From Utricularia gibba (Eukaryota > Streptophyta > Magnoliopsida > Lamiales > Lentibulariaceae): DNA of 64,000 bases. Positions 33,440 to 58,511 of this stretch are shown one piece after another; position 1 is the stretch's first letter, and each line of letters opens with the position of its first letter. The notes under the pieces were generated by a model that saw only the letters and a program-made list of their open reading frames with translations, was not told the origin of the DNA and ran no database searches. The stretch lies in contig NEEC01000018.1 of NCBI GenBank assembly GCA_002189035.1, forward strand, positions 806,001 to 870,000, given 5' to 3'. Position numbers and translations under genes: made by a program.

Positions 33440-36400
33440 GTTACGTATTATATAGGTAAGTTGACGGTGAAGTCAAGTTTCAAATGGATATCATGAAAAT
33501 TGAGTACTTTGATTTCAGTGAATTCGAATGGACTAACTTGAAAAGATTGTTTCAATGTGCGCAAGAGTCAGAATATTCAAATACAACATATATTAGATTT
33601 TGGTATAAGAAAAAAGAGACAATGAGTAATGGATTGACGTTGTTAGAGATTGATCAACAAATTATGGAGTGAGAGAATTATTTTGATAAAAAAGACAAAT
33701 TCATGTATATATTAGTTGATGAGGACACTAAAGAGATGTAATTTGATTTAATTCATATGATTGGATAGAGAAAAGGATATAATTTAGAAATAGTAAATGA
33801 TGAAGTACCTTTTTTGGATTCTAGTATATGCAATCACAACATTGAATTTTTTGGACAAATATTGAAAAGGAAAATGTTACACATGAGACATTCATTGACA
33901 TAGAATATAATTCGGAAGTTGATGAAATTTTGGGAATTAAAATCACTCATGATAAATCGAGTGATGATGAGAATCAAGAAGACAACCTTACAATAGGGAT
34001 TATGGATGAAAAAATAAATTGAGGTACAAATGTTTTGGGAAGTAATAGATTAGAAGAAGAAAATGATGATAACATAAAAGCATAATACATTAGACACATT
34101 TTCAATGGTCTCAATGAGCTTGATATTGGTGATTTAGAGGAAGATCTAAATAGCTAATAATTTTGATGATGAGGAGGGATCCAAATATTTTGTCTATGAT
34201 GTAAAAGAATTTAGAAAAAATCCAGAACTTTTGAAGGTAACACTCTTTAATACTAGAGATGAAGTTAAATATGTAATCAGAAGTCACTGTATATGGAAAA
34301 TACATACAATCAAATTTGTATGGATTGATTTAAAAAGAGTAAGAACAAAGTGTATAGGAGATGATTGTTCTTGGTATATATCTACATGTTGCGTGTCATT
34401 TCCTCAATAAATTTTAAATATTTAAAACATAAAACACAAAAGAGCGTAGTACGAGTATCGATCTCAGGGAGTTGTTTTTCGTGAAAAGTGTTTTGTAAGA
34501 AACTTCTACAAAATGTCACGGTTTTGTAAAAAAGGGTATGTGAAAAGCAGAAATAAAAGTTACAACCTAAGTGATGGGCCTTGATTACGGGACGCAGTTC
34601 CTGTGAATAAGATTCCGTCTTCTTCCTTTGTCTATCCTTGCCTCGGTTTTCACCGATTTCTTCCGAATAGCTGGTTATAGGAGCAAGGAATAGCCTACTC
34701 TCCCTTACACTCTGATTAACAAGGAGGCACGGGAATAGACTCATGTGATTCCCCATTGGACGATTGAGAAGACAAGAGGACGCCTTCGATTGCCTTCAAA
34801 ACCAAATTGCGTCCGTGTGCCCAGTTGTTGCCAATGGCCAGTGGCAGGTCCGAAGTCACAACCTGTCCGTTATCGCGGTACCTAAGCCACAAACAATCCA
34901 CTACTTCCCTCGAATCGGTAGAATTGGAGTTGGCACTTTTCACCTTGATCTTCATCAAAATCTACGAGGAGTGACGTGCTACTCATGGACCTTGACTAGG
35001 AGTCGTTATAGAAAGACTGCAACAAGATACGTGGAAGTATGCAAAATCTGTATTGAATTCAGCGAAGAACCGAGTGTAGTGCTCAAGACTTGGAAGGAAA
35101 CTTCATTTTCTCCCAAAAACTAAAAGGTTTTAACCCGAAAGGGCTATGAAAACATAAATGAAAATGGAAGTTAAGTGTTCTTCCTCCTTGGAGGGGAGGA
35201 AGAACTCAAAAGTTTTAAGTCTGGAAAGGAAATGGCAAAAGTCCATAACTAAGTGTTCCAAGTTGCTTTTATATCACTCCCCACGTTCATTAACTCCTTT
35301 GGGTCCCCTTCTCATCATTCCTTATGTCTTGCATACACCACTAGCTTTACTTTGTGTGCAAGTTAGCGCCCAATCATTGTTGCAAACTCTGACATTCCGT
35401 AAATCAGGGACCTTGACCAGTGTCAGTCTTCTGCTCACAATCGTTCCAAGTCACGTCTAAGGCACGAAAATTCAGAGTCTGGCCTCCTGCTACACTCCTG
35501 CAGTCTTCTAACATGTCTCGGTTAAAGTGTATGAAAAAAAAGACATAAAATATATACAAAATAGAAAAATAAGATTTTTCTTGGGAAATCAATTTCTTAT
35601 CAATATTCCTAATTAGAAGACTTAACACATAATAATACCTAATAAATAACTAGAAAATAACACTTAATACTACATCTAAGGAAAGTGTTGATATTGCATG
35701 GCAAATCAAATCATTTGATGAGTATCATAATCATGTTTGGAAGAAATTTATCACATGGAAAGAGTAGCTATTTATGGTTGGGACGAACGTTTCAAAAAAA
35801 GTTTATAGAAAATTCGTGGGCTATATATTCTGAAAGTTGAAGTGCAAAGTATCATGGATGAAAGCATATCTAACCAAAAAATATGCTCTTAAATTGATTA
35901 GAGGATAGTATAAAGAACAATTTTTGAATATTTTTATCTATTTCAAAGAGCTTTTAGGGGCAAATAAAGGTTCAACATTAAAAGTCAAATTTTCTGAAGG
36001 GAAGTTATCCTATCAACACTTTGAGGGTTGCTATATATGTTTCAACTCCTAACTGTTGTATCTACTGATCGCAATATTAATATTTTTCCTATGGCATTGC
36101 CTGTTGAAGAGAATGAGAATAGAGAAGCTTGGAGATGGCTTCTTGAATTACTCGTAAATGATACTGATATTAGGCAACATAATAAGAGATCTTACACATT
36201 TATTTCAAATAGACAAAAAGGTATTATTCCAATAATTGAAGAAATTTTGCCTCATGTAGAAATAAAATATTGTGTATAACACATATATGAAAATATGAAG
36301 AATGATTGCATAGTTTGAGGACAATCTATTAAAAATAGTATGTGGAAAGCTGCAAAATATACAAGAGTGCAAACTTTTGAACTTACAATGAAGAAACTCA

Positions 36401-37056
36401 AGAAGCTTAATTTGAATTGCTATAATTGATTGATAAAAATTCCATCAAAGCAATGGTGTAAAGCATTTTTCTCAACTTCATCAAAGTGTGACATGCTATT
36501 GATTAATGATTGTGAATGTTTCAATTTATTCATCCAAGTTGCAAGAGATCAACATATCATTAGCATGCTTGAAACAATAAAGAATCTTGAAACAATAGTA
36601 AGAATTCACTCCAATAGAATAAAGGTTAGAAATTGGATTGGACTATTATATCATAATATTCAAAAGTTGCTTGAAAAAAATATGTGAAGCATGCAACGAT
36701 CTTCCTTTACTATCAAATGAGTTTTATTGTCAAGTTGGAACTCAAAAGGATCAGTATAATGTAGATTTGGTGGGAAAGAAATGCAATTGTAAACAATGAC
36801 AATTAATTAGTATTCTATGCACACATGCTACATGTGTGATCAAGTATGTGGGATATGATCCATTTAATTATATCGATCTAATGCTTTTCAAAGAAATGTA
36901 CCATGTTATCTATGCTCTATCATTCCGTGGTATTGATTCTATGAAACTGTGGATGCCAAGCGATAGAATTCCACTACTTCCTCCTATTTTTCTTAAGAGA
37001 GTTGGTAGGCTAAAAAAGAAAATAATAAGAGCACTCTGTGAGCTACCATCCAAATA
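33440..37056 (+). pseudogene. Decayed MULE transposase, interrupted
   Basis: N-terminal pieces occupy 33484-34380, ending with the MuDR DNA-binding domain (FNTRDEVKYVIRSHC, then CIGDDCSWYI). After the solo LTR the protein resumes at 35690 with QIKSFDEYHNHVWKKF. It continues through YKEQF and FEGCYICFN, then the DDE region ENREAWRWLLELL with FISNRQKGI. HSNRIKVRNW follows, and last a SWIM zinc finger (CNCKQ...CTHA, about 36780-36830) with a conserved tail ending near 37056. Many stops interrupt it, including one inside the SWIM motif, so it is not functional. Confidence 0.8.
34387..35669 (-). mobile_element. Solo LTR (gypsy type) inside the MULE, with 5-bp target duplication
   Basis: The 1283-bp insert is flanked by direct repeats ctaca at 34382-34386 and 35670-35674. 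It falls exactly where the MULE transposase reading is broken. On the plus strand it starts TGTTGCG and ends TTAATA, so on the minus strand it runs TATTAA...CAACA, a TA...CA LTR. Near the plus-strand start it carries gtacgagtatcgatctcagg, which read in reverse is the conserved U5 end of Athila/Tat-type gypsy LTRs. No internal coding region remains. Confidence 0.75.
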
Positions 37057-49845: not shown

Positions 49846-50473
49846 ACATTAGCAGGATGGATGACTTGTTGCATGTTGATTCCTTGATGTTGAGTAACTC
49901 GCAACTTGTGAGTTAGAGTTAGATCACATGATGAGACAGCAATATAACTGGTAACTTTCTAGATGGGTATCATGTCACAACGTTGAACAAGTTGCAGGTA
50001 TGTTGAGGATAGTGACAATTGACGGGTGATTTTGAAATAAATGCTCCTCAACTAACACAATTAATTGCATATTCCCCCCCCCTGGCCCCTCTTCTATTAT
50101 TCATTCATTCATTGGGCGTATTTTATTCCACAAAATCTCATGGATCAAATATAAACAAATGAATATATATATTTTTTGCATTAAATTAATAGAAAATAAT
50201 GCAACAAGCTCGTGGAGTTGTTCTGGAAAATAGTCACATCTACTTTATCTCACATTTATTAAATCCAAATTGTAACACTAAAATTATTTTTGAAATAAAC
50301 TTCTATTTTTAGAAAATTAATTTTATAACAATTTCAATATAATATAGAAAAGAAAAGTGATATTAAATTAACCATATTCCTACTTGTATACTTCACTCCA
50401 AAGTGGGCCCTTTGCCATTGATTACATGGGACCCACTTTTCTCCCTGGGAGTAAATTGATGGTTGAGTGGTCG

Positions 50474-50497
50474 GGCTGAGTTGGTGATATACATCTT
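50474..50497 (+). repeat. Left terminal inverted repeat of the intact MULE
   Basis: 24 of 24 bases match the inverted copy at 55459-55482. It lies 325 bases before the transposase start codon. Confidence 0.8.
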
Positions 50498-50821
50498 TAA
50501 TATATTATTTTTATTTAATAAATGTAATTAACAATTATACAAAACTATTTTTTATAAATGTTATACCATATGAATTATTTGAAGAGATCACATGGGTGGT
50601 TAAATATAAAATTATTGTTTCATTTTAATTTAATTAAACTGCTGAAAATGAATGGCCGTAGCATGCCCATGACTAATTCAAAAGCATTTAGTTAGTTGAA
50701 TATTAAATGATGTCTCAATTCCTTCTTATTTAAATTGACTTCTTTTTCATTTCCACACCTCTCATCTTCCATCTATATCCTACGTTTAGTTTCCTGCAAA
50801 AAATTGCTGCTCACAATCATC

Positions 50822-53800
50822 ATGTCAAAGGTTTCAATCCGTATATTCTCCGGTGGAAATATCTTAAGAGATCAATACTCCAATTCTGTTGTACATGATC
50901 GTGACCCCGTAAAGGTGATTCTAGTGAAACCTACAATTTCACTAGAACGATTTATCGAGATTTTACAACGTGAGGTAAATATAGTTGTAGATTTTCGTAT
51001 TGTTCGTATCAAAGTCAAATTTTACGATGTCAACACTCACGACTTCAACTTCTTCCCAATTTCTGATGAATCCGGTCTACGGTATGCCTTGAATCCATTC
51101 AACTCACAATATGATGTGGACTTATATATTATTGATGATAGCATGAGTCAATGTGCTTCTTCTAGTTATTCCGGTAAGTACAATATTTTCAGAATATAAT
51201 TTATATTTATTTTTCATGCATTAAAACTATAAATTTTGCATAATCTAAATATAAATATTGATTTTGTAATGCATAATGTTTGGATACTTATTATGAGTGT
51301 GATTACATAATATTTTATTAATATACACAATTCATCAGATTTATAATTAAGTGATCACTATATTAGCATACATCATATTAATATTGATGATATTATTTAT
51401 TTTTATTTAATAATGAATAAACTAAATTTTTAGATAATTAAGTTTAAAAACTAATTTATAATTAATATCAATTATAAAATTAATTTGCACATAAAGAAAG
51501 ATCTTTGGTTGTGGCAATATTAATTGGCCGATGAATTCTGAGAACTATTTAAAATAAACTTAAAAAAATGATTTAAGAATTTTAGTAATAGGTATTGATA
51601 TAAAAACATAAAATATTTTAAATAATCAAAAAGAAAAGTTAAGAACTATTTATAATAAAAAAAGAATAAGTGGAGAATTAATTTGAATAAAAAAAGTTGA
51701 GATTAAAATAAAAAAAATATTAATTCAGCATAGAACCGTAAGTAATTTTTTAGCATTTTTATTATTAATATCACTTATGAAATTAATTTTCGTAAATAAA
51801 TAATAATTTTGATGAAAAATAACTATTATTAAAATAAAATTTACAAAATAATTTAAGAATTTCAATAATAAAATATTGATGTAAAGTATAAATATTTTAA
51901 ATAATTAAAAAGAAAGTTAATAACAATATGTAATAAAAAGAAAATAAATATAAAAATTAATTTGAATAAAGAGAATTGAGGTTAAAGTAAAAAAATTATT
52001 AATTCATTATAGGAAGAGAAGTAATTTTGATAACTATACATTTTACTAATTATTTTCATGAATAACAGTGCCAATGGCTCCGCAACCGATTCAAGATCAA
52101 CAATATTTCGATTCAGAATACTATCAAAATTTGTACAACTCACTCCCGTCGTCCTACATTGAACAAGATTTCGACCCGTTCGATTTTCCACATCCCCAAC
52201 CATCTGAGCCTCATCATGAAAATGCTGCCTCTGACAATGACCCCATGGAGGAGCATGAGGAATTTGCAGAGTACAACAGTGATGATGATTCTGATTACAT
52301 TGCAGATACTGTCGAGAGTGACTCTGATGATGAATTTATCCCAACCCCAGAGGAGGTGGCTATGGCAGTAGCCGCGTTGGATGACGGAAACATAGGTGCT
52401 ACACCATCTATTGGGGTAGATGACAATGATGCAACTCTTGATGACTTGGAAGAAGGTCCCCCTGCAGATTATTATGATCGAATCCCATCTATGGATACAC
52501 AACAGGCAGAGGAGATGCATCTGCGTGAGGGTATGCATTTTAATGATAGTCAAAGTATGATGGATGCAGTGATGAGATATCATGTATCGGTGGCACAACG
52601 AGAGTTCAAGGTGTATAAGAGTGACAAAAAGAATTATTCCGTCATTTGTCGACAAGCAGCAAATGGAAGTAGTAATTGCCCATTTGCGCTGCGTGGGGGA
52701 CCTAGCAAGAAGACGAACACATGGAGGATTACTATGCTGGTGGAGCCACATACTTGCGATGTGACTGATTCATTGGGAGCTGGTCATCATGTCAACCTAT
52801 CAATCAAATTCATTGCGCCTCGATTGAAACCATACTTGAAAGCCACGCTCACAATCAAAGGGGTGCAGTCGATTATCAGAGACAAGTGGGGGTATGAGGT
52901 TAGCAAGTGGCAGGCCTGGGCTTGCATGATCCGTGCATACGAACTTTGCTACGGTACCTGGGAGAAGTCTGTGATAGAGCTACCACGGTATCTAGAAGAG
53001 GTTCGTCATAGAAACTCAGGCACTGTGGTCAATTGGGGTGATGATGCACAGGATACCCAGGGCCCACATTATCTAAGAAGGGTTTTTTGGGCATTCGGTT
53101 TTGCGATTCGAGCCTTCGCCTATGCTCGTCCGGTGCTATGTGTCGACGCCACACACTTATACGGTCGCTATGACTACAAGCTGCTTGTTGCGGTTGCCGT
53201 TGATGGGAGCAACAAGATTTGCCCTGTCGCTTACGCCTTCGTAAGAAGTGAGAGTGAGGAGGATTGGACGTGGTTTTTAGGATTGCTTGGAATGCATATT
53301 GTCCGAGATAGAGAAGGAGTATGTATCATAAGTGACCGTGCCGCAGGCATATTAGCAGCATATAGGAACTACAAGGAATGGTTTCCCCATTATGGCGTGC
53401 ATCGTTTTTGTAATTGGCACCTCCGCAAGAATGTTCAGACGCATATTGGAAGACGATCGAAGGGTGTGTCCAACATGGTGCATAGGGTTTCTTATGCTAG
53501 GAATGAGGTAGATTTTCAAAATGCATGGAATCACTTGAAAGAGCACTGTCCAAAGGCACATGCTTATTTGGAAGATATTCCATTTGAGGAGTGGACATTG
53601 CTATATGATGGAGGACATCGGTTAGTAGTTTTTAGGTTATTTTTTAAAATTATGAATTTGATATGACATCACAAATTATATTATCTACAAACATCATGTA
53701 CAGGTATACCATAATGACCACCAATCCTGCGGAAGCTTTGAACGGTGCCCTAAGGGAAGCTCGACGCTTACCTCCAACCCAAATTGCCAAGGTATTATGA

Positions 53801-54994
53801 TATGCAATAATGTTTGAGCCTTTATACTATCAATCTTTTATAATATTCAAGAAAATTTCAGGTTACTTTCGAGAAAGGAAGAGAGTATTTTGAAAAATAC
53901 CGAGCAGCAGCGATGAAGAGACATAAAGAGGGCATACTTTTTGGGAGAGTAGTGGAGGAAGCATATCGAGAGGAAGCGAGAGCATTGCCATTCCTACAAT
54001 GCATTGTGTATGATACTGAGAATCAGGTGGCAGACATCATAGAGGAGACTCCACACTCTTCTCAATCCCGAAGGGTGCGTGTTATCCAAGGAGAGTGTGC
54101 CTGCGGGATTTGGAACATAGACCGTTACCCTTGTCGTCATGCACAAAAGGTAATAATACGATATCTGTTATATCATTTTTCCTATGATTTAAATGCATTG
54201 ATTACATGCAGGCCCTTCATAAATTTCGTATCAATCCAAGGACTCGAGCCTCGGTATACTACCTTGTAACCACAATGGTTAATATGTACCGAGGTAGCAT
54301 TAATCCGGTAAGAGATGAGAGTGAATGGGAACCCGCACCCTTTGAGCTCTTGGTTGACCCAGCACGTAAACGAGTCACCGTCGGTCGAACACAGTCAACA
54401 AGGTACAAGGGGCCACCAGATTTTGAGCAGAGAGCAACTAGACGTGAGAGGCGACGGAAACCGAATGAAGCCTCATCTGGCATCACCCGGAACCAATCAA
54501 TGCAACAACATGGACTGGAAGATTCACATAATAGTACATCGAGGCGTTCTAGGAGACAACAGGATGCAAGTAAGGGACCAAGCTCGATTGATTTGAATAC
54601 TCCTCCTCCAAGCCAGGATTATGGATATGCGCCCTCGTTCAAAGAGTCTTCGGCGTATCCGATCCCTTCTTACAGTGAGGTACCACATTCTAGGCGAGAT
54701 AGCGCATTACTGTCCACAGGATACAACAAACCGGGAGGCTCCTCGTTCAGACATTCGTCGTATGATGGTCTCGAATTGGGTCTTGCTATACAACCCACCT
54801 CAACAACGGCATGTGATTCAATATCACATCCCCCTTGGGCTCCGCAAGGCATAGCTGCTAGGAATTCGATATCATATCTTCCAAGGCATCCGCAACTCGA
54901 GAGTCGGAGTGGCACAAACATTGGCACCCAGAGTAAGAAGGTCCTTGTGAAACTTATTGGAAATAAAATAAGTGGTGTATTTAAGAAGAAGTAG
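50822..54994 (+). CDS. MULE (mudrA-type) transposase, apparently intact, five exons
   Basis: Exons are 50822-51173, 52069-53620, 53704-53791, 53862-54149 and 54212-54994, giving 1020 residues with all introns GT-AG and in frame. Exon 1 encodes the beta-grasp N-terminal domain of this family. An acidic linker (about 150-250) leads to the MuDR DNA-binding region (about 268-345: EGMHFNDSQSMMDAVMRYHV, then CRQAANGSSNCPF). The MULE DDE domain follows, with D477 (CVDATHL), D540 (ISDRAAG), the CNWHL motif between the second D and the last acid, and E645 (NPAEALNGAL). The SWIM zinc finger is C743-A-C745...C755-R-H757. The tail is Ser/Pro-rich with a short basic end. It would catalyse cut-and-paste transposition of elements with matching ends. 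All catalytic and zinc residues are present. Host domestication is possible, but terminal inverted repeats flank it, favouring a mobile element. Confidence 0.9.
51461..52045 (+). repeat. Diverged tandem duplication inside transposase intron 1
   Basis: Unit 1 (51461-51763) and unit 2 (51764 to about 52045) both start attaatatca. They share in order aaattaattt, atttaagaattt, ttttaaataat, aaaaagaaa, aattaatttgaataaa, attaattca and agtaattttt. The period is about 303 bases. The duplication largely explains the 895-base length of this intron. Confidence 0.65.
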
Positions 54995-55458
54995 ATGTTT
55001 TAAAATTGTCTAAAATGCAGTTGAATACTTGATCTATTTTTTCAAATATTGGCTTTGAGTCAAATGGATAATTTACCTTCGATCGATAAAAACACTCATT
55101 TATATCACTTGTAAATAAAACAAAAATTAAAAAAATATGTATTTTTCGTATTCTATCAAGAATACGGAAAAGTGATGAGATACCAAAGATCAATATTGAT
55201 CAGAATGACAAAAAAATCAAAACCCAAGATCCATAGGACCCCAATCTCTAACTCACTTAGTTCATCGCATTAACACAAACCCGGTAAATGAGAATGCAAA
55301 TCTCAAGAAACCCAGTTGAAAAATTGGACAGACAAATCCAAAATTCCACATTTCATTGAGGTAAAAAAAGCTGCTGAGTTAAAAAAAACAAAAATACATA
55401 AAAATGTATTTTCCCAACATTAACCAAAAGGATGTATTTTGCAAACTAAAATTGTAAA

Positions 55459-55482
55459 AAGATGTATATCACCAACTCAGCC
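55459..55482 (-). repeat. Right terminal inverted repeat of the intact MULE
   Basis: The inverted, identical partner of 50474-50497. It lies 465 bases after the transposase stop codon. Confidence 0.8.
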
Positions 55483-56724
55483 GTTGATTTCGAATCTAGC
55501 ATTCATTTCTTCGCAGATTTAAACAAAGCAGCAAATCTTGTCCACTCGACGAGAGTATTTCTTCATAAAAATAAACGACGCCAAATATTTAAATTAATAT
55601 TATCAACAATTGCAATTTCCATGATGAACTAAACTCCAAAGATGATCAATAATTATATGAAGAGTAAATTAAATATATATTTAAATAATTATTATAGTTT
55701 ATTAATAAATAGAAACTAAATTCATTCATATATATAATTATGAAAATTATTTTTTATTTTTCCAAAAAAATATAAGTATGAATAATATAATATTCATATA
55801 ATACAAAAAATGATTGAAAATATTGTCTTACACTCTTATTTTTATATTTTAATAAAAAATATCACAATTATGTATTTTTTTCAAAATTATCTAGAAAAAT
55901 AAATCATCTAGAGAAAAAAATATGTTTTTATTAAAAATATGTGGGAAAATTAGTTATTTTTAATTTTTTATTCTTTTAAAATAAATTAATTTAAAATTAT
56001 TATTAATTTTCTTTATTATTATCTCTTACAATGTTACAATAAATTAATTTAAATTTATTACTAAGTTTTATACTAGTATAAAAAAAGAAGAAATAATGGA
56101 TTTCTTTCTTGAATTATGTATCAAGTGTTATTACAAATCATAACAATAAAAAAATAATTTTAAATTAAATTATTTAACTGGATAACAAATTAAAGATAAT
56201 TTATTTTTGTAAATACTTTTTTCATACTAATTAATTTCTTGTATATATGTTTTTAAAAATACATATATTTATGGTATTTTTTTATTAAAATATACAAGTG
56301 AGAATATAGAAGAATATTTTTTATCATTGTTTTTTTGTAAATATCATACACTAATGGATGTAAATATAAATATTTTTTTATTCATATTTATATTTATTGA
56401 AATAATGAACAAAGTAATATAACCATATTCAATGGAATCTTAAAAATAGTTAATTTTCGAATTTTGTATTACTATGGTTATTTGATAATAACCATATGTT
56501 TTATGACGTGGAAGCTGTGCACCATTCAATTAGAAATTATTTAAAGTCCAATAATTACGTTTAATTATGCATCACACGTCAGCGCTAATTACGTGTATAT
56601 CTGTATATATATACCCTGCTCAGGTTCGTCTACCCTCAACCTGTAGCGGGAGATTTTGGAACTCTACGTCCGTGCAGTGACAAGGAAATCCGTGAGATCT
56701 GAATCCAGTTCCTCGTCTTGGGAT
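55483..56724. other. A+T-rich intergenic DNA and WAV3-like gene upstream region
   Basis: No gene was recognised. The stretch is very A+T-rich until about 56500. A TATA-like tatatatata at about 56603-56612 lies roughly 115 bases before the predicted start codon of the E3 ligase gene and is a plausible core promoter. Confidence 0.45.
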
Positions 56725-58511
56725 ATGGGAAAAAGCTGGATGGTAAGTGCATTTCGAGACGCCGGAGACACCGATCACACGGACGCCGGCGCCGCCTTGG
56801 CGTCCCCCAGGGGGCCAATGCTTCCGTTAGCTCGGTCTCCGAGATCGCCTTTTTCCATCCTCAAGAACACCCTTCGTCTGTCAAGAGTATGATTCTTGTA
56901 AAGTGAATCGCACGAGTAGACGAAGGTTTGCATCAGATTTTGTTTCTAATGCTGGGTGTTTGTTTGCAGAGTAGCTGTGGTGTGTGTATGCAGACCTTGA
57001 AATCCGGCCATGGAATGGCCATTTACACTGCGGAGTGCTCCCATGGCTTCCACTTCTCTTGTGTAGTCTCACATGTCAGGGAACGAGGATCCCTTGTTTG
57101 TCCTGTCTGTGGAGTTACTTGGAAGGATGCGCCTTTTCTAGCAGTTCGTCCACACAACGAAGCTGCTTTGATGGAGATTCCCAAAAAGAACAGGAAGAAT
57201 TCGCAGCTGCATTTCGTTGAGAACTCACGTTACGCAGACGATGAACCACTGTTGACTCCCAAGACGAGTAGGGCTCTACTTGCTCCTATTCAAGATGAAG
57301 AGTTTCCTGGTTTCTTAAATAACCCCGTTTCTAGCACCGACTATCGTCTCCCTGGAGATCCACTGAAACTGGAGTTCAGCTTATCCAGTGAGGCAGCTGT
57401 GATTTCTCGCGGTCCAATACACAACACCTACGCCGTCGTGCTGAAGGTAAAATCCCCCGCGCTGCAACCGAAACGGGCGGCGGAAAAGAAAAGTCGGGCG
57501 CCGATCGATTTGGTGGCGGTTCTCGATGTTAGCGAGGGAATGGCCGGAGCCAAGCTTGCAATGTTAAAAAGGTCCATGCTCCTGGTCTTATCCTCCCTAA
57601 GCTCCGCCGACCGCCTCTGTATCGTAGCTTTCTCATCTGCGCCGAGGAGACTCATGCCCTTAACGAGGATGACAGCCCGCGGGCAGCGATTGGCTGAGCA
57701 CATCATCCACAATCTTTCCTGTAGCCAGGGAGCGAGCGTTGAAGAAGCGCTGAAGCACGCAACGCAGGTGCTCCACGAAAGGCATGAGACAAATCCCGTC
57801 GCCAGCGTGATCCTCCTTTCAGGCGGTCACGGAGGCGGATTCGCCGCCACAAAAAAGTACCAGAGATCGCAAGAAGATGCGTCGTTCACTCGATTCGCAC
57901 ACGTCGAAATTCCGGTGAATTATCCGGAGCCGGCTGAGAACACTGTGTCCAGATGCCTCGGCGGCCTACTGTGCGTCGTGGTCAAGGATTTGAGAGTCCA
58001 ACTCAGTTTCGGACCCGGATCCGACCCAGGAGAAATCACCGCGATTTACCCACTGACCCAGCCAAGGACCGTCTTCGGGCCGAATTGCATCCGACTCGGA
58101 GATATGTACTCCGAGGAGGAGAAAGCGCTAATGGTAGAGATCAGAGTACCCGCATCACTTCCTCGGGTCGGGTTACACCATGTGATTGCAGTAAATCATT
58201 ACTACAAGGATCCGATCACCAGAAAGCCAATCAAGGGTGGAGATCGACATTTGGTGTTTCCGCGGGCCGAGACCGTTCGATCTGGCGGCCTGAAAATCGA
58301 GCGGCTGCGGAACACCTTCATTAGCCACCGAGCCGTGGCGGAGTCATTCCGGCTAATTGAGCGCGGCGCGATGGACAAAGCCGAGGAGTTGTTGTCATCA
58401 GCTCTCGCCCTGTTACGGCAATCGGCTGCTCATCCAGCCGGTGAATGGGTCGAGAATTTAGAAGCACAACTCAAGCGAGTGAAATCACAGCGCCGGCGCG
58501 TGGGGGACTAG
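56725..58511 (+). CDS. WAV3-family E3 ubiquitin ligase (RING-H2 plus vWA), two exons
   Basis: Exons are 56725-56886 and 56970-58511, giving 567 residues with a GT-AG intron in phase 0. The intron sits just before the RING, as I recall for the family. The short Ser/Pro/Arg-rich N-terminus ends with SPFSILKNTLRLSR. The RING-H2 ligands are C57, C60, C77, H79, H82, C85, C98 and C101. A vWA domain begins at about 232, and a family-specific C-terminal region ends in helices with RLIERGAMDKAEELL. Members bind E2 enzymes through the RING; WAV3 and homologues act in root gravitropism. The vWA MIDAS motif, normally DxSxS, reads D240-V-S-E-G, and the usual late SDGQD-type loop reads SGGHG. Metal binding is therefore probably lost. 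The coding sequence is G+C-richer than its surroundings. The frame continues upstream of the ATG without another Met. Confidence 0.88.

Follow-up and report, generated by a model that had tools for sequence, protein, structure and literature searches.

The Utricularia gibba DNA analysed here, a stretch of 64 kb referred to below as the window, contains an element (50474-55482; coordinates given without a contig are positions of the window) which, judged from its relatives, is a young, recently mobile member of a MULE transposon family. Sequence comparison with these relatives demonstrated that the canonical ends of the family are unequal, and that in the window copy an inverted duplicate of the right end has taken the place of the left one. 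The best explanation, which we consider probable taken as a whole, is that the left end of a young MULE was lost after insertion and was rebuilt from the right end by a template switch; the perfect inverted repeats of the window copy would be the product of this repair, i.e. two right ends. The window element was compared with its own genome (100 Mb in 516 contigs, possibly incomplete, so that further intact copies could exist), and the relatives were named by contig, e.g. C412, C255, C4 and C142.

Four siblings were detected in the genome, on C412, C255, C4 and C142. They were 98.1-99.6% identical to the window copy over approx. 4,990 bp and differed from it at 26, 18, 28 and 81 sites, respectively. 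The siblings occupy unrelated genomic sites, each with a target duplication of 9-10 bp (AGTAGAAGTC, TAGTTTCGTA, CCAACATGG and TCTAAAAAC). In the same genome an older relative, C304, was about 10% diverged, and C213 and C414 were more decayed. Target duplications of 8-11 bp, by which the MULE superfamily is recognised, were present in the four siblings and in seven of the eight non-autonomous relatives examined, and terminal inverted repeats were observed in the siblings in an imperfect form (approx. 81% over 90 bp). At commonly used plant rates, the 0.4-0.6% divergence between three of the siblings and the window copy would place the spread roughly within the last few hundred thousand years, the rate being assumed. 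The sequence-only reading had regarded the element as a possibly autonomous MULE and had proposed a genome search for common ends and near-identical copies; this search yielded the four siblings, the older copies and nine relatives of about 690 bp, in agreement with a recently mobile MULE.

The two ends of the window copy consist of the following parts:
50474-50488, minus strand: 15 nt, GGCTGAGTTGGTGAT, an inverted copy of the right terminus where a canonical left end of 103 bp would be expected, not present in the left end of the relatives
50489-50498, plus strand: ATACATCTTT, a microhomology of 10 bp which the right terminus has in common with the left interior (corresponding to repeat unit 4 of the left end in its canonical form); the junction of the rebuilt end
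55333-55482, plus strand: canonical right end with subterminal ATACATC repeats, its terminus CAACTCAGCC at 55482 being set by the target duplications of the siblings

The inverted ends of the window copy were identical at 25 of 25 nt (50474-50498 and 55458-55482). Their identity had been recognised before, but their length had been given as 24 bases. The relatives have two different ends, the left one being GAAAAAATTRGTRAAATACATC (in a longer form GAAAAAATTGGTAAAATACATC) and the right one, read inward, GGCTGAGTTGGTGATATACATC. The right end is the same in the siblings and in the window copy, and the siblings align with the window from 50489 onward, not from 50474. The outer 103 bp of the canonical left end are absent from the window copy and could not be found elsewhere in the 64-kb window, where strong matches occurred only in the right end of the element. 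The ATACATC repeats are situated 16, 46, 74 and 104 nt from the terminus in the canonical left end and 16 and 46 nt from it in the right end, while the left end of the window copy has only the repeat at 16 nt; three of the four left subterminal repeats have been lost. The fused end is made up of repeat unit 1 of the right end and unit 4 of the left end, joined in register.

Since the 22-mer GGCTGAGTTGGTGATATACATC had 14 exact sites in the 100 Mb and its reversed control had none, the matching of the ends is not due to chance. The 14 sites correspond to the right ends of the family of the window element and to the left end of the window copy, and in a genome-wide scan no element other than the window copy had the right-type 22-mer on either side. 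A natural palindrome at the insertion site, as another source of inverted flanks, could be ruled out, since the 15 nt are the right terminus of the family. One could also regard the window copy as a normal, fully autonomous MULE with perfect terminal inverted repeats, and the siblings as the degenerate ones. The intact frame and the perfect repeats would suit this reading, but the ends are unequal in the relatives, including the C304 copy (approx. 10% diverged) and the 690-bp family, which indicates that the form in the window is the derived one and makes the reading very improbable. Thus the identical ends, which had been taken as the mark of an intact element, belong in fact to a copy in which the left end was replaced by the inverted right end.

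The immediate flanks of the element were as follows:
50462-50473, plus strand: GTTGAGTGGTCG, probable edited left copy of a 10-bp target duplication
55483-55492, plus strand: GTTGATTTCG, which probably represents the right copy of this duplication

No clean target duplication was found at the flanks of the window copy, as had been noticed earlier for one of 9 bp; the missing duplication is probably represented by an edited 10-mer, and 10 bp is the commonest duplication length in the family. The outer 5 and 3 bases of GTTGAGTGGTCG and GTTGATTTCG agree and the interior differs, an agreement expected by chance with a frequency of about 0.005 (anchored alignment score) or 4e-4 (two-block pattern). 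Since this near-duplication is suggestive only, insertion into the present site may have followed the rebuilding of the end. In that case the left end would have been remade at a previous site, from which the element would have transposed here on two right-type ends, the altered end being functional. The precise stop of the inverted copy on the last base of the canonical end, which resembles a cut by the transposase, and the ATACATC of the fused end at the normal 16 nt from the terminus are consistent with such a history. However, a fresh insertion should carry a clean 9-10 bp duplication, which is edited or absent here, and two such ends occur at no other locus, hence we consider an earlier rebuilding unlikely. 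A normal insertion, the left junction of which was later broken and repaired, is the simplest account. Both flanks were effectively single copy in the genome of the plant, and no closely matching second locus that could represent the empty site was found there for either of them, only short or AT-rich partial matches.

An error of the assembly, in which a wrong joining of repetitive MULE-end reads at the 10-bp ATACATCTTT produced a false left end, has to be considered as well, because the junction lies inside a repeat common to several near-identical copies. The 15 nt adjoin single-copy DNA on their outer side, though, with a duplication-like match to the right flank, and a random misjoin is not expected to stop exactly at the terminal base; the probability of an artefact appears to be small.

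Two further features were observed to the right of the element. An imperfect palindrome, rich in AT and about 560 bp long (55786-56348; 67% self-match when inverted), lies close beside it, and approx. 1.4 kb downstream begins the open reading frame of a WAV3-like RING/VWA E3 ubiquitin ligase (56907-58508, plus strand), the MULE being on the 5' side of this gene.

The MULE transposase gene of the window copy (50822-54994) comprises these parts:
50822-51173, plus strand: exon 1, open frame with GT donor
51174-52068, plus strand: intron 1, containing an internal direct duplication
52069-53620, plus strand: exon 2, with the DBD_Tnp_Mut-like region, D477 (53145-53147), D540 (53334-53336) and the CNWHL motif
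53704-53791, plus strand: exon 3, with the catalytic E645 (53732-53734)
53862-54149, plus strand: exon 4, with the SWIM zinc-finger residues 743-757 (54096-54140)
54212-54994, plus strand: exon 5, with the stop codon TAG and, at 54599, a 3-bp in-frame deletion relative to the siblings

The unbroken 1020-residue transposase in five spliced exons, predicted from the sequence alone, was recovered in full: with the four GT..AG introns removed, the five exons read through 1,020 codons to the stop, with no frameshift. The reported DDE acids (D477 in CVDATH, D540 in IISDR and E645 in TTNPAEALN), the CxxH motif CNWHL at 565 and the SWIM residues CxC...CxH (CACG..CRH) at 743-757 are likewise present, and these motifs were found again in those relatives that are readable. 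In comparison with Pfam profiles the window transposase scored 61.3 bits for PF10551 (MULE; cut-off 27.6) and 34 bits for PF00872 (Transposase_mut; cut-off 21), while the values for DBD_Tnp_Mut (22 versus 25 bits) and for SWIM itself (18 versus 19.6 bits) were slightly under the cut-off. The duplication in intron 1 (51543-52028) is degenerate, its units of about 207 bp being offset by approx. 278 bp and about 81% alike, and the siblings have it too.

Among the five young copies in the genome searched, the frame was unbroken in that of the window only. In case of C412 one stop was found, C255 had one frameshift and one stop, C4, read in the frame of the window copy, had two frameshifts and two stops, and C142 had several of both; the lesions are independent, differing from sibling to sibling. 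Nine codon changes were unique to the window copy, seven of them non-synonymous and two synonymous. Two of the seven amino acid changes affect conserved positions, namely R278S in the DNA-binding region, where the readable relatives have R or K, and A359V, where alanine is present in the relatives readable at position 359. The coding differences among the young copies are, by this comparison, neutral in kind (non-synonymous fraction 0.71-0.80; neutral expectation from the observed spectrum 0.75). Since the codon changes look neutral and two fall at conserved positions, the unbroken state of the gene is no proof of its activity. Against C304 the non-synonymous fraction was 0.66 (p = 0.003), a value hinting at older constraint.

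A frame that is intact although one end of the element is damaged would also be expected of a domesticated, MULE-derived host gene, similar to FAR1/FHY3 or MUSTANG. The element belongs to a young multicopy family with target duplications, however, and neither the fraction of 0.71-0.80 against the neutral 0.75 nor the 7 to 2 ratio of unique changes speaks for a host function. Domestication is extremely improbable and was rejected on copy number, target duplications and neutral change. The sequence-only reading would have accepted it if no other locus carried these ends and the gene were under purifying selection, while in fact the siblings lie at unrelated sites and their coding differences appear neutral.

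The existence of related non-autonomous copies, anticipated by the same reading, was confirmed by nine elements of about 690 bp with the common ends (L042-L049 and L070, on C451, C414, C328, C4, C304 and C3). They have both end types of the family, their ends being approx. 81-85% identical to those of the window family. In the eight elements whose borders were read (all except L070), the ends were unequal in the same way, two of them having small left-end variants. Perfect 10-bp duplications flanked seven of these eight, including the one at C451:2700036 with its slightly variant left end; in L046 (C4:3767970-3768661) the left target duplication was edited (CATGGGACGACTC versus CATGGGCCTC) in the same pattern as at the window copy. 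The interiors, 94-100% alike among the copies, match at 80% the source-like locus C321:333756-334300, which encodes IRX15_IRX15L_GXM (1e-45), and a more distant locus of this sort is found at C1:2190565-2191095. The IRX15/GXM gene fragment is antisense relative to the 690-bp element as oriented here. By their MULE ends and captured host gene fragment the 690-bp relatives are Pack-MULEs, and the ends which they have in common with the window element suggest that its transposase could move them. A further relative of about 555 bp, L039 (C244:832090-832643), had a right-end identity of 90%, its terminal bases being cut off by what appears to be a different inverted-repeat element.

We infer the course of the rebuilding, from the break and the order of events to the template switch, the filler, the activity and the reduced mobility, from these sequence features. 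The family would move by DDE cut-and-paste, with 9-10 bp target duplications, naturally unequal ends and subterminal ATACATC repeats in phase. After insertion a double-strand break, probably a cut by the transposase, would have occurred at the left junction with loss of the outer left end. Repair synthesis may then have switched template at ATACATCTTT, from left unit 4 to unit 1 of the right end of the element itself (or of its sister), and copying would have continued as far as the last base of the right end; the new end would then have been ligated, via a few filler bases, to the left target duplication. Documented cases of template switching at microhomology exist among TIR transposons (PMC8277862), and breaks at plant transposons often contain filler DNA (PMC4423477). 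For MULEs whose TIRs are in tandem, a slippage between the TIR motifs has been put forward (PMC3310237). In a small search of the open-access literature nothing specific was found on template switching between the two ends of one MULE.

The possible autonomy suggested earlier holds for the gene, which is intact, but not for the left end, which is damaged and lacks the canonical 103 bp; with an intact transposase frame and one of the two canonical ends missing, the autonomy of the window element is doubtful. The unbroken gene could supply transposase in trans and is a possible source for the relatives. The element itself is perhaps a poor mover, since its left end has one ATACATC instead of four. 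It is conceivable, though rather improbable, that a MULE end was rebuilt from the opposite end in register via the subterminal repeats and that the right-right element either could still be cut and moved or became fixed as the sole intact helper of a young Pack-MULE family, repair thereby separating the source from the mover.

The window family resembles the plant MULEs of the MuDR/VANDAL/Jittery radiation (PF10551) in its DDE transposase, MULE domain, SWIM-type finger residues, 9-10 bp target duplications and single gene, and differs from them in its short, unequal ends with spaced ATACATC repeats. As in Pack-MULEs, a host gene fragment (IRX15/GXM) is carried by the 690-bp relatives, which have ends and duplication length in common with the window family; the window element, in contrast, bears the transposase and has no recognisable captured gene. 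The gap filling of Pack-TIR elements and FoSTeST (PMC8277862) and the multiple-TIR MULEs (PMC3310237) are similar in that template switching at microhomology or slippage between repeat motifs remodels the ends, whereas the template of the window copy would have been its own opposite end, giving two right ends. The window copy thus appears to be a known kind of element with an instructive end rearrangement, a recent single-event example in which the repeat array of a transposon would let DNA repair exchange one end for the other, and in which perfect inverted ends need not signal an intact element. With its intact gene and non-autonomous partners, it is a plausible and concrete candidate for a transposase source. 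A fragment of a decayed, distantly related MULE transposase (24% identity) was also observed in the window, at 36034-36546.
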